Shown piece after piece: positions 2,744-16,333 of a stretch of 38,245 nucleotides of DNA. A program made the translations under genes and the position numbers. The stretch is from a virus. The stretch spans positions 1 through 38,245 of IMG/VR virus record IMGVR_UViG_3300033141_000627. One strand, 5' to 3'. How positions within the stretch are numbered: the stretch's first letter is position 1; each line of letters opens with the position of its first letter. The notes beneath the pieces were generated by a model that searched no databases, was not told the origin of the DNA, and saw only the letters and a list, made by a program, of their open reading frames with translations.

Positions 2744-3310
2744 ATGAAGAAATACAATGTAATTTACGCTGATCCTGCTTGGAAATATGGAAGTAAAAGC
2801 GCTATAAATAATAGTAATGGAAAAGAAATAAAGAAATTATCAGAGCATTATAATACAATGACAACACAAGAAATTAAGGATTTACCTGTAAAAGATATTA
2901 TAGCAGAAGATTGTGCTTGTTTCTTATGGGTAACTGATAGTCATTTAAAAGAAGGTATTGAAGTGTTAGAGGCTTGGGGGTTTAAGTATAAAACAATAGC
3001 GTTTAACTGGATTAAAAAAACAAATAAGGGAAATACATTTAAAAACGTGGCACCTTGGACATTAAAGAGTTCAGAGATTTGTTTATTCGGAACGAAAGGA
3101 GCAATGACTAAGTATAAGAAAGCAAACAATATAGAACAGCTTATTGAAGCAGAGCGAACAAAACACAGCAAAAAGCCAGAAGAAGCAATTAAAAGAATAG
3201 AAAAATTGTTTGGAGAAATTCCAAGGCTTGAAATGTTTTGTAGATTCCCTAGAGAAAATTGGGACGTATGGGGGAATGAAGTAGAAAATTCAATTATTTT
3301 AATAAAATAA
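2744..3310 (+). CDS. MT-A70 family adenine DNA methyltransferase
   Basis: 188 aa, full length for compact phage MT-A70 enzymes. The catalytic motif is DPAW at 10-13 (usually DPPW), preceded by VIYA. Other family marks are CACFLWVTDSHL, GFKYKTIAFNWIK, a SSEICLFGTKG strand and MFCRFPRENWDVWGNE at the C-terminus. It should transfer a methyl group from SAM to adenine N6, probably marking phage DNA against restriction. No paired endonuclease is adjacent, so it is an orphan methylase. The P-to-A change in DPPW is the one oddity. Confidence 0.88.
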   Translation: MKKYNVIYADPAWKYGSKSAINNSNGKEIKKLSEHYNTMTTQEIKDLPVKDIIAEDCACFLWVTDSHLKEGIEVLEAWGFKYKTIAFNWIKKTNKGNTFKNVAPWTLKSSEICLFGTKGAMTKYKKANNIEQLIEAERTKHSKKPEEAIKRIEKLFGEIPRLEMFCRFPRENWDVWGNEVENSIILIK

Positions 3311-4619: not shown

Positions 4620-4627
4620 AAATCCCC

Positions 4628-6970: not shown

Positions 6971-7190
6971 CTATGGGAGTGTAAGTTGGGTTTTATTTTT
7001 GTGGTGGATTTATACCCGAGCAGCCTTGCACTTTCTAGTATGGGAAGTAGGGGCATAAAAGCGGGTTCGATTCCGGCTATTCCCTCTAACATGTTAGGCA
7101 ACCTCTCACGCCTATTAACAATGCGCACCCCGAGAGGTCCTCTAAAATCAAAAGTCTATATCGGCTTGTAGCGAAATGATATAGGCTGAA
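6971..7190 (+). ncRNA. Structured RNA region B with T-arm-like hairpin
   Basis: No convincing ORF. Helices: 6975-6985 with 7025-7035 (11 bp, three GU), enclosing GGGT/ACCC (6988/7014); GGGAAGTAG (7042-7050) with CTATTCCC (7077-7084), enclosing GCGGG TTCGATT CCGGC, which looks like a tRNA T-arm with one G-G mismatch; CTAAC/GTTAG palindrome (7086-7097); CCTCTC/GAGAGG (7102/7132); and a 10-bp stem 7153-7162 with 7178-7187. The spacing does not give a standard tRNA. It is either a degenerate tRNA plus hairpins or a distinct structured RNA. Confidence 0.5.
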
Positions 7191-7210
7191 AAGATTGTTC
7201 TTTTAAATAT

Positions 7211-7284
7211 CGGGGATTAATTCAGTGGCAGACGGCGCGGCTTGGATCTGTGAAGCGCAAGTTCGATTCTTGCATCCCCGACCA
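7211..7284 (+). tRNA. tRNA-Pro (anticodon UGG)
   Basis: Acceptor CGGGGAT (7211-7217) pairs with ATCCCCG (7274-7280), A73 then encoded CCA. C1:G72 is the mark of bacterial tRNA-Pro. The T-arm is GCAAG TTCGATT CTTGC, and the anticodon arm is CGCGG CTTGGAT CTGTG with anticodon TGG. The D stem is weak (ATTC with GACG, two pairs). It reads CCA, the commonest proline codon in these genes. Confidence 0.85.
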
Positions 7285-7287
7285 TAA

Positions 7288-7361
7288 TAGAGATTGGTGA
7301 AGTGGCATCACGCATGGTTTTGATCCATGAATCCTAGGTTCGATCCCTAGATCTCTAGCCA
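7288..7361 (+). tRNA. tRNA-Gln (anticodon UUG)
   Basis: Acceptor TAGAGAT (7288-7294) pairs with ATCTCTA; G73 and encoded CCA end at 7361. The D-arm is GTGA AGTGGCA TCAC, the anticodon arm is CATGG TTTTGAT CCATG with anticodon TTG, and the T-arm is CTAGG TTCGATC CCTAG, all perfectly paired. Only three bases separate it from tRNA-Pro. It reads CAA, which is abundant in the internal virion protein at 31510. Confidence 0.93.
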
Positions 7362-7363
7362 AA

Positions 7364-7578
7364 ATTGTTCTTTTAAATGTAGGTTGTAAGTGGCGATAAA
7401 GTAATCGCTAGATTAATAGGTTAGTAGAACGACTAACCAGCAAAGAAAGCCTGTTAATTGATAAAGATAGAATATAGGTATTTCGCTAGGATTGACACTG
7501 TGGTAGTGTTTCTGCCCCCTAGAGGATCTGGTTTCGATGCCAGAAAACATTGGCTTACAATCTACTTCAAGAGAATAA
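7364..7578 (+). ncRNA. RNA element C (long closing-stem family)
   Basis: Starts two bases after tRNA-Gln. The 5' arm 7364-7390 pairs with the 3' arm 7554-7578 over about 23 positions with GU pairs and one bulge, matching the outer stem of element D. Inside are GGCGAT/ATCGCT (7389-7411 region), ATTAATAGG with CCTGTTAAT, a D-arm-like ACAC TGTGGTA GTGT, and a T-arm-like TCTGG/CCAGA with a TTTCGATG loop. No acceptor stem or proper anticodon is present, so this is a tRNA-derived or tRNA-mimicking domain rather than a tRNA. Confidence 0.6.
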
Positions 7579-7589
7579 ACGGCAGCACT

Positions 7590-8498: not shown

Positions 8499-8918
8499 AT
8501 GAACTACTACAACAAACTAATAGAGGAAAGGAATAAGCTTGAGACTCCTAAGCTGGAGTTTGGAGTATTATGTCAGAATAATTACTCAGATAGCCATGAG
8601 CCATACATGTTTATTGAGAAGAAGAATGGAATGACTGTATTTTGGAGCAATCAATTCAAAAGAACATTGTCAATGAAGCATAAAAAAGCTGATGAAGATA
8701 TTAAGCCTTACAAAATCCTAGGCAAGGAATTAAGCCTACAAGATGTGCTTAGGATGTTTGATAATAAATTTTATTCTACAATAGTAAGAATAGCTGGGGG
8801 TGAATGTATTATAAATTTTGATAGGAATTGTGATGATTTCACTGTTTCAGTTGACTTATCCAGGCCCCTAAAAGACCAAGAAGAAGCTTTACAATCTATT
8901 TTATCTCTGATAAAGTAG
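8499..8918 (+). CDS. Hypothetical protein, 139 aa
   Basis: Soluble mixed alpha/beta protein. No catalytic or metal motif seen, apart from a conserved-looking KILGKELSLQDVLRMFDNK helix around 76-95. Starts after CCAACAATG without Shine-Dalgarno. Function unknown. Confidence 0.65.
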   Translation: MNYYNKLIEERNKLETPKLEFGVLCQNNYSDSHEPYMFIEKKNGMTVFWSNQFKRTLSMKHKKADEDIKPYKILGKELSLQDVLRMFDNKFYSTIVRIAGGECIINFDRNCDDFTVSVDLSRPLKDQEEALQSILSLIK

Positions 8919-8943
8919 TTATGTACTTGTTAATATATAAATT

Positions 8944-9579
8944 ATGAAAAAAAGAGTAGTAAATCCTGGCGATAGGTTTAACAACTGGGAAATTGTAAAA
9001 GAGGTTGAATATCAACTTAAAAGAAGGTTTTTATGTAAGCATATAGAATATGGAGCTGAGAAAGAAATTAACTTGTGTCATCTAGTCTCTGGTAAGTCAT
9101 CTGGTGCAATTAGGGATGGAGTAAATTCTAAAAGCTATTGTCATGGGATGGGAGGTAAAAACAGACATCCAGAATATGAGGCTTGGCAGGGAATGAAGCG
9201 TAGATGTTATAATAAAAATGATCCTGGTTATAAAAATTATGGAGGAAGAGGAGTTGTAGTTTGTAATGAATGGATAAAAAATTATATGCAGTTTTATACA
9301 GATATTGGGAAAAGACCTTCTAATAAGTATAGCATTGAGAGAATTGATAATAATAAGTCATATTCAAAAGATAATTGTATATGGGCTTTAAGAAAGACTC
9401 AAAATAGAAATAAAAGAAATAGTAAGCGTGAAATATATAAAGGAAAACTAACACATATAGCAGATATAGCAGAAGACTTAGGAATAAGGCACGAAGCACT
9501 ATATAATAGGTTGTATGTATATAACATGACAAAAGAATTAGCTTTTACATCTGGTAGACTAAAAAGAAGAATCCTATAA
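8944..9579 (+). CDS. HNH homing endonuclease, YGGRG type
   Basis: 211 aa. The stretch HPEYEAWQGMKRRCYN, YKNYGGRGVVVCNEWI and SIERIDNNKSYSKDNCIWA with KTQNRNKR is the core of a widespread phage HNH family. The C-terminal part has an HTH-like DNA-binding tail (ADIAEDLGIRHEALYNRL). Same family as the gene at 37459, so this endonuclease has at least two copies here. AT-rich codons compared with late genes support mobility. Confidence 0.85.
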   Translation: MKKRVVNPGDRFNNWEIVKEVEYQLKRRFLCKHIEYGAEKEINLCHLVSGKSSGAIRDGVNSKSYCHGMGGKNRHPEYEAWQGMKRRCYNKNDPGYKNYGGRGVVVCNEWIKNYMQFYTDIGKRPSNKYSIERIDNNKSYSKDNCIWALRKTQNRNKRNSKREIYKGKLTHIADIAEDLGIRHEALYNRLYVYNMTKELAFTSGRLKRRIL

Positions 9580-15170: not shown

Positions 15171-15390
15171 AATTGTTCTTTTAAAGTAGAGTGTAAGTGG
15201 CGGACAGTGAGCCGCTAATATAAAGTTAAGGAGAATTTAACGGGAGTTGGTGTAGTGGCAGCATACTAACGATGGCGTTAAAGGGGGTAGTTCAATTCTA
15301 TCACTCCCGACCATAAAACGAGGCGTCATTACACGCCTATTCTTAACTCCAAGTCAAACCTTGGCTTACACCCTACTTCAAGAGAACAAT
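15171..15390 (+). ncRNA. RNA element D with embedded tRNA-like domain
   Basis: Outer stem: 15172-15197 pairs with 15365-15389 over about 25 positions with two mismatches and a GU. It encloses an AGTGGC/GCCGCT hairpin (about 15197-15218), a helix AGTTAAG/CTTAACT (about 15223 with 15345) around the tRNA-like domain plus an AGGCGT/ACGCCT hairpin (15321-15338), and a CCAAG/CTTGG hairpin (15350-15365). The arrangement is a multibranch junction. The outer stem has the same sequence as element C and similar to A. No ORF fits. I do not recognise a described family. Confidence 0.72.
15241..15313 (+). ncRNA. tRNA-like domain lacking an anticodon loop
   Basis: Acceptor CGGGAGT (15241-15247) pairs with ACTCCCG (15303-15309); A73 and CCA follow. 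D-arm GTGT/ATAC and T-arm GGTAG TTCAATT CTATC are intact. The anticodon arm is TAACG ATGG CGTTA, a 5-bp stem with a 4-nt loop, so no triplet can be read. C1:G72 and A73 are prolyl-type identity marks. It might be processed and even charged, but it cannot decode. Confidence 0.8.
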
Positions 15391-15416
15391 TTAGATTTAT
15401 TTAATAATTATATGGT

Positions 15417-15961: not shown

Positions 15962-16333
15962 ATGAACGATAAAGAATTAATACTAGAAGCGGTTAAGCTA
16001 TCGTGTATAAATGGATTCAAAATTGATCTAATGGAGTATCCTTTTAATATATATAGTAAGTATGAGTATAACGAGAAGGGGAACTTCTTTTACAATGAAT
16101 ATTCAGAAAACATTCATATTTATCAGATTCTATTCGACAGTAAGTTTTGGATGGGGTTAATCATAGCAACTCACGATCTTTCAGAAATGAGCATAGAAGA
16201 GCAAGAAGAGCATATATTCTACTGCACGATTACATACCTAACAGAAATAGCAAAAGCATTTACAACAGAAGCAAGGATTCAATACCTTAGAGATTACTTA
16301 GCAAGAGAAGATAATAAAGTAAGGATTAACTAA
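15962..16333 (+). CDS. Hypothetical protein, 123 aa
   Basis: Acidic, tyrosine-rich soluble protein with LILEAVKLSCINGFKIDLMEY and a C-terminal helix. No family recognised. Confidence 0.65.
   Translation: MNDKELILEAVKLSCINGFKIDLMEYPFNIYSKYEYNEKGNFFYNEYSENIHIYQILFDSKFWMGLIIATHDLSEMSIEEQEEHIFYCTITYLTEIAKAFTTEARIQYLRDYLAREDNKVRIN

Follow-up and report, generated by a model that had tools for sequence, protein, structure and literature searches.

The window, by which we mean the whole 38,245-nt stretch of viral DNA analysed here, contains at 15171–15391 a structured + strand RNA (element B). This RNA is a tRNA-derived cloverleaf without decoding function, in which a payload consisting of a second tRNA mimic and a hairpin replaces the anticodon arm. 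Through one of its homologues, element B is linked to a large family of phage RNAs in which a leucine-tRNA body is retained but its anticodon arm is missing.

Element B is a tRNA-shaped RNA that encloses another tRNA-like RNA

Element B is 221 nt long and is closed by 25 pairs between 15171–15197 and 15365–15391, in agreement with the 25-position outer stem proposed in an earlier, sequence-only reading of this DNA. Its fold (-81.4 kcal/mol) is far more stable than those of dinucleotide-shuffled sequences (-52.5 ± 4.4 kcal/mol; z -6.6), with 0 of 200 shuffles as good. Within the closing stem, the outer acceptor strands (GTGTAAG, 15191–15197; CTTACAC, 15365–15371) are lengthened by 18 more positions, formed by a 5' arm at 15171–15190 (AATTGTTCTTTTAAAGTAGA), which includes the 14-nt motif ATTGTTCTTTTAAA common to all copies, and a 3' arm at 15372–15391. 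The acceptor encloses a D-arm (GCGG ACAGTGAG CCGC, 15200–15215), a 9-bp stem at the anticodon position (15224–15232 pairing with 15340–15348) and a T-arm (CCAAG TCAAAC CTTGG, 15349–15364). With these parts, the outer RNA, too, derives from a tRNA. The earlier proposal of a tRNA-like domain within a multibranch RNA is therefore correct as to the embedding but not as to the surroundings, because the outer RNA is an anticodon-less tRNA derivative rather than an unrelated structure. A search of 351 bases with Rfam at a permissive threshold returned chance families only.

The payload within the 9-bp stem consists of a nested, Pro-type tRNA-like RNA (15241–15313, + strand) and a hairpin (AGGCGT...ACGCCT, 15321–15338). 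In the nested RNA, the acceptor pairs at 7/7 positions (CGGGAGU/ACUCCCG), the D-arm (GUGU/AUAC) and the T-arm (GGUAG/CUAUC) each include one G-U pair, and C1:G72, A73 and an encoded CCA are present; these are the parts named in the earlier reading. The tRNA-like fold is real by the criterion of similarity to known tRNAs, with 38.5 bits to RF00005 (gathering threshold 29) when the stretch was scanned alone; it was missed by the Rfam fast filters and by ARAGORN when the whole window was scanned. The anticodon arm, UAACG-AUGG-CGUUA, is a 5-bp stem with a four-base loop, exactly as first described, in place of the 7-nt loop with U33 expected of a tRNA. The nested RNA is not a decoding tRNA. Its cloverleaf is not the best state in the minimum-energy fold of full-length element B, from which it is separated by 4.7 kcal/mol (-74.8 constrained, -79.5 unconstrained); when folded by itself, the nested RNA does form its acceptor, anticodon and T arms.

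Element B belongs to an extended-stem subfamily

We identified four homologues of element B, which bring the extended-stem subfamily to five members. One, element C, is located within the tRNA cluster of the same window (7363–7581, + strand; fold z -4.5) and has a degenerate T-arm in its central domain (CTGGTTTCGATGCCAG). The other three (L009, L181 and L222) were found by pattern search; the pattern CCTTGGCTTACA gave 28 matches, the real ones being only L181, L222 and L009/L282. A covariance model built from L009, L181 and L222 (R2) recovered both copies in the window, neither of which was used in building it, with 55.1 bits for element C (E 2e-14) and 46.8 bits for element B (E 1e-14, unfiltered, on its own stretch). 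The - strand of element B scored 27.4, far below the + strand; a large share of the pairs are G-U, which accounts for the difference and assigns the RNA to the + strand. The outer stem has undergone compensatory change between copies (AAACCG/CGGUUU in L009, AAUUUAG/CUAAAUU in L181 and AAGUAG/CUACUU in B), so that the refuting condition set in the sequence-only reading, homologues lacking such changes, did not hold for this stem.

The exact 5'-arm pattern gave 113 matches in 84,980 bacterial and archaeal species, 0 of them with a matching 3' arm; the 3'-arm pattern gave only five chance matches in viral contigs, in coding DNA; BLAST of element B against phages gave short partial matches only, partly to tRNA T-arms; and a loose motif scan of loci gave mostly chance matches.

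The L181 copy connects this subfamily to leucine tRNAs. Its inner closing stem, TTGTAAG-TG-GCGGAATAGGTAGACGC...CCAAGG..CCTTGG-CTTACAA, corresponds to the acceptor, D-arm and T-arm of a leucine tRNA, and the arms of element B match it (TGTAAG-TG-GCGG..CCGC, CCAAG..CTTGG and CTTACA). In both L181 and L222 the T-loop is split by an insert between G55 and C56 (GGTG/.../CAAATCC). The contig of the L181 phage (L292) has three further tRNA-like genes at 8604–9344, all with abnormal anticodon arms (an 8-nt loop, or over 30 nt); a short RNA at 8608–8715 has the same closing stem without tRNA arms.

A large family of phage RNAs keeps a leucine-tRNA body without an anticodon arm

BLAST with the D-arm of L181 identified un-annotated stretches in SPP1, SPG24 and phages of Latilactobacillus, Weissella and Lactiplantibacillus, each with a matching acceptor, a T-arm with the loop UGCAAAU, and no anticodon arm. 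The family spans SPP1, SPG24, phi3T, phages of Listeria, Enterococcus and lactobacilli, and at least 100 viral metagenome contigs. All 21 fetched phage loci carry a family RNA with a 7-bp acceptor, a 6-bp T-stem, a near-invariant D-arm and a central domain of 28–152 nt; across the family, 23–183 nt of variable sequence stand in place of the anticodon arm. The shared body has a Leu-type D-arm, G18G19, the T-loop UGCAAAU and a 13-bp acceptor/T helix, and the T-loop, D-arm and a YCAUG motif are near-invariant across phages of many hosts. None of the fetched loci has an RNA annotation for the family member. The family also escapes both standard finders: in five reference loci run with Rfam and ARAGORN, 0/5 members were reported, each tool giving just one ordinary tRNA-Arg, away from the element. 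In most members the acceptor helix stops at 7 bp, the length found in tRNA; the window subfamily differs in its long closing stem.

Pairing is maintained through sequence change. In 19 members from cultured phages, 98% of cells are paired, double changes occur in 11 of 16 pairs (87 double-change cells, compared with 25.9 in shuffled alignments), and the covariation score is 0.732, compared with 0.185 ± 0.023 when shuffled and at most 0.155 when slid; the choice of acceptor offset (3 or 4 nt) by best pairing introduces mild selection into this count. For an independent test, viral contigs were picked on the T-arm alone. Among the 123 T-arm matches listed, 110 lie within 400 nt of a Leu-type D-arm, and in 101 of those at least 6/7 acceptor pairs form, with 76 distinct acceptors; these matches are not exhaustive, and the family is therefore larger. 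The 61 distinct cores from viral contigs among the matches listed are 97.2% paired, with 229 double-change cells (65 when shuffled) and a covariation score of 0.617 (0.168 ± 0.012 when shuffled). At the place where a tRNA has its anticodon arm, 1/101 members among the matches listed has a canonical one, with a shuffled expectation of 0.8. Strong matches also occur in bacterial genomes, in at least 4/299 Bacillota and at least 1/198 Bacteroidota, with few candidates scored per genome.

The link between element B and this family is transitive. A model built from the 19 cultured-phage members (R1) scored 42.5 bits (E 4e-10) on L181, which was not in the training set. The best cellular matches of R1 are ordinary tRNA-Leu genes, at 27–47 bits, which shows the origin of the family and means that the score of L181 alone is no proof of membership; we include L181 because of its exact D-arm (19/19) and the split T-loop, UG/CAAAU. 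Element B itself scored 10.3 bits in register at 15191–15371, no better than chance in the window, where a control stretch scored 11.4; its connection to the large family thus runs only through L181. Like the family, element B lacks a canonical anticodon arm and has instead a 9-bp stem that holds another tRNA.

Two other RNAs were observed. In SPP1, a tRNA-like RNA of ~45 nt with only an acceptor, a TTCAATT T-arm and one short hairpin directly follows the family member (L516, 711–760). Beside a RecT-like gene, L545 has on the - strand at ~1501 a tRNA-Leu-like RNA with an ordinary TTCGAAT T-loop and no normal anticodon arm, which is perhaps a parallel lineage.

Payloads change rapidly and occupy three positions

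The insertion points for fast-changing payloads are the anticodon arm, the tip of the D-loop and the tip of the T-loop. In 10 distinct members among the matches listed (L551, L552, L577, L583, L593, L600, L620, L645, L648 and L656), an insert of 52–118 nt separates G18 from G19 and so opens the D-loop, and most of these inserts bear a GGTAAA-type motif. Payload sequence is hardly conserved across the family; rapid payload change would fit an arms race and would also fit relaxed constraint. The nested tRNA-Pro-like piece is the payload in the element B copy only. A complete tRNA-Lys(UUU) is nested in L602, and T-arms lie inside the payloads of L564, L590 and L645, so element B exemplifies a recurrent arrangement in which one tRNA body holds another. 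The payloads of SPP1 and SPG24 have a pseudoknot-like pairing, CCTC/GAGG.

Comparison with known RNAs

The closest known relative is class II tRNA-Leu (RF00005), with which the family shares a 7-bp acceptor, the D-arm UGGCGGAAUAGGUAGACGC, G18G19 and a 7-nt T-loop with U54, C56 and A58. It differs in having no anticodon arm, a 6-bp T-stem (and so a 13-bp helix), G55, a YCAUG motif before the T-arm, a position 73 that is not fixed, a CCA that is almost never encoded and, in some members, inserts at the tips of the D-loop or T-loop. Phage tRNAs that evade tRNA nucleases (van den Berg, 2023; PMC10264068) or act against retrons (PMC11555353) are likewise phage-borne and tRNA-derived with a changed anticodon arm; however, they decode and carry point changes, whereas the present family has lost the whole arm. 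GOLLD and ROOL RNAs (PMC12286853) are also phage non-coding RNAs near tRNA clusters, sometimes with an embedded tRNA or pseudo-tRNA, as in GOLLD (PMC6582537), but they are ornate folds of 400–800 nt, while here the framework itself is a tRNA. Identity with GOLLD or ROOL was rejected, there being no match to an Rfam covariance model. tmRNA also has a tRNA-like body with a long insert replacing the anticodon arm; by contrast, the present RNAs have a complete D-arm, are Leu- rather than Ala-type and have no tag frame. Identity with tmRNA was rejected, the RNAs being unrecognised by ARAGORN and Rfam and having no tag reading frame. Pseudo-tRNAs such as tRNA-Other of Bacillus cereus are transcribed and tRNA-like but are not known to serve in translation; tRNA-Other is a single chromosomal or plasmid case, unlike this covarying, payload-bearing phage family. 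A plain pseudogene was set aside on the grounds that covariation indicates a structure kept by selection.

A search of the open-access literature, subscription journals being outside its scope, found no description of the family, which descends from tRNA-Leu. Phage tRNAs have been puzzling for half a century, and a widespread family that keeps the elbow and acceptor and does not decode shows that phages use the tRNA body beyond translation. Because un-annotated members occur in the textbook phages SPP1 and phi3T and in SPO1-like phages, this use is open to immediate testing in Bacillus subtilis.

Possible roles of the family

RNase P, RNase Z and the CCA enzyme recognise the elbow and the acceptor of a tRNA, and EF-Tu is disfavoured by acceptor/T helices of 13 bp, such as that of tRNA-Sec. 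A mature, non-translating tRNA body that presents a payload or serves as bait for a tRNA-binding factor would therefore be the likeliest role. Specifically, we propose, with confidence that is evenly balanced and on the basis of sequence features, that the phages encode a tRNA scaffold that does not decode and that bears a fast-changing payload; it would act as a decoy for enzymes that handle tRNA, as their cargo or as a display scaffold, against tRNA-directed host defence or to occupy a host factor. The sequence-only reading had likewise suggested a decoy or a folded scaffold, a role that is still an inference. Through its conserved body, the RNA would be matured, stabilised or bound by host RNase P, RNase Z, the CCA enzyme and elbow-binding proteins; the lack of an anticodon, the G55 T-loop and the 13-bp helix would keep it out of translation. 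For the phage it could then serve as a tRNA decoy that takes no part in translation, or as a display scaffold; the most plausible targets would be host enzymes of tRNA-directed defence, or a tRNA-binding host factor that it would occupy, and a nested tRNA mimic would be a second bait. Anti-defence use is the leading guess, with no particular defence system singled out by the data, and it agrees with published counter-defence by phage tRNAs (PMC10264068, PMC11555353). Against this reading, RNase P and RNase Z would be impeded by the 25-bp closing stem found in the window subfamily. In addition, A73 is present in only about half of the members and CCA is encoded in 1/93 among the matches listed, which argues against a uniform aminoacylated product. 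More broadly, and tentatively, the family may be a major undescribed class of phage non-coding RNA in which an anticodon-less leucine-tRNA body is a modular chassis for rapidly exchanged payloads that include whole tRNAs, with which phages of a wide range of hosts would counter those host factors that act on tRNA; this reading includes, at the same tentative level, insertion points at the anticodon arm, at G18/G19 of the D-loop and at G55/C56 of the T-loop.

Alternatively, the RNAs could be cis-acting leader or processing elements, providing an RNase P/Z site or an attenuator in a late or tRNA operon transcript, with the excised RNA inert. Several members lie directly after a gene annotated as a transcription regulator or activator in temperate phages, others lie within tRNA clusters, and the acceptor helix is limited to 7 bp, as that of a processing substrate would be. 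We nevertheless consider this explanation unlikely: members also occur in quite different places (between genes 9 and 11 in SPP1), some phages carry two, a mere cutting site needs no payload of 23–183 nt, and the long closing stem of the window subfamily makes a poor RNase P substrate.

It is quite improbable that the family is evolutionary debris, that is, decaying, functionless tRNA-Leu genes captured by phages, into which other tRNAs were inserted by recombination. The poorly conserved payloads, with nested pieces that range from a complete tRNA to lone T-arms, are consistent with decay, as is the absence of element B from the corresponding place in L009, which has homing-type endonuclease ORFs there instead. 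However, decay predicts the opposite of what is seen in the bodies, where almost all of the 76 distinct acceptor stems pair, the T-loop, D-arm and YCAUG motif barely vary between hosts, and 0/500 shuffles reach the covariation score; for the family, this explanation is already contradicted. The sequence-only view that element B is neither a normal phage tRNA nor a typical pseudogene is borne out: it is structured, non-decoding, kept by selection and not a product of random decay.

LeuRS does not need the anticodon, and for this reason the RNAs could be leucylated, draining LeuRS or feeding a non-ribosomal reaction. The Leu-type D-arm and retained G18G19 would suit such a leucine acceptor, and A73 is present in 51/98 members among the matches listed; yet A73, which bacterial LeuRS requires, is absent from the other half or so, the 1:72 pair is unpaired in 19% of members among the matches listed, and the acceptor end of the subfamily is buried in a long helix. 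We regard leucylation as very unlikely.

For element B specifically, the 4-nt loop could have arisen through an error of sequencing or assembly, the embedded RNA then being a normal tRNA-Pro, given that there is one metagenomic copy only and that loss of 3 nt is a small change. We consider this explanation very unlikely: the loop site has no homopolymer, both flanking anticodon-stem strands pair exactly, the tRNA-like genes of relatives are likewise abnormal in the anticodon arm, whose loss or rebuilding is the rule among relatives, and the outer RNA would be untouched by such an error. Lastly, a tmRNA-like trans-translation RNA with a tag reading frame in its payload, suggested by the tRNA-like body with a large insert for an anticodon arm and by the pseudoknot-like pairing in SPP1 and SPG24, can be dismissed as extremely unlikely given the complete D-arm, the Leu-type rather than Ala-type body, payloads that can be as short as 23 nt, too little to hold a tag frame, and the lack of a tmRNA match with ARAGORN or Rfam.

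Genomic context of the window

With identical 93-nt ends, the window represents a complete circular contig of a phage and encodes terminase, capsid, DnaB and ERF proteins. The closest cultured terminases are those of Flavobacterium phages, at 44%; DnaB used as a query returned no relatives. L009 is from a near relative of the window phage (TerL identity 96%), and its homologue is syntenic with element C. Upstream of element C, the tRNA cluster includes a normal tRNA-Pro(UGG) with an encoded CCA (7211–7284, + strand), before which the 5' motif occurs for a third time (7195–7207), and a normal tRNA-Gln(UUG) (7288–7361, + strand).

Other elements were observed in the window. An abiF RNA lies at 7102–7138 (RF03085; 42.7 bits, above gathering); no Abi_2 protein was found across the whole phage genome, and the RNA is possibly an orphan RNA antitoxin against host AbiF. 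A second conserved RNA hairpin, TTTGTGGTGGATT..CGAGCA, is found at 6973–7030 of the window and at 3246–3312 of L009, with pairing kept through stem changes (GGGU/ACCC vs GAAU/AUUC). Finally, a promoter-like block, TTGCATATTAATNTATGATAATCTATAAT, is repeated at 4621, 7635, 11260 and 35799 of the window, and more weakly at 16331; these sites look like phage promoters under common regulation.
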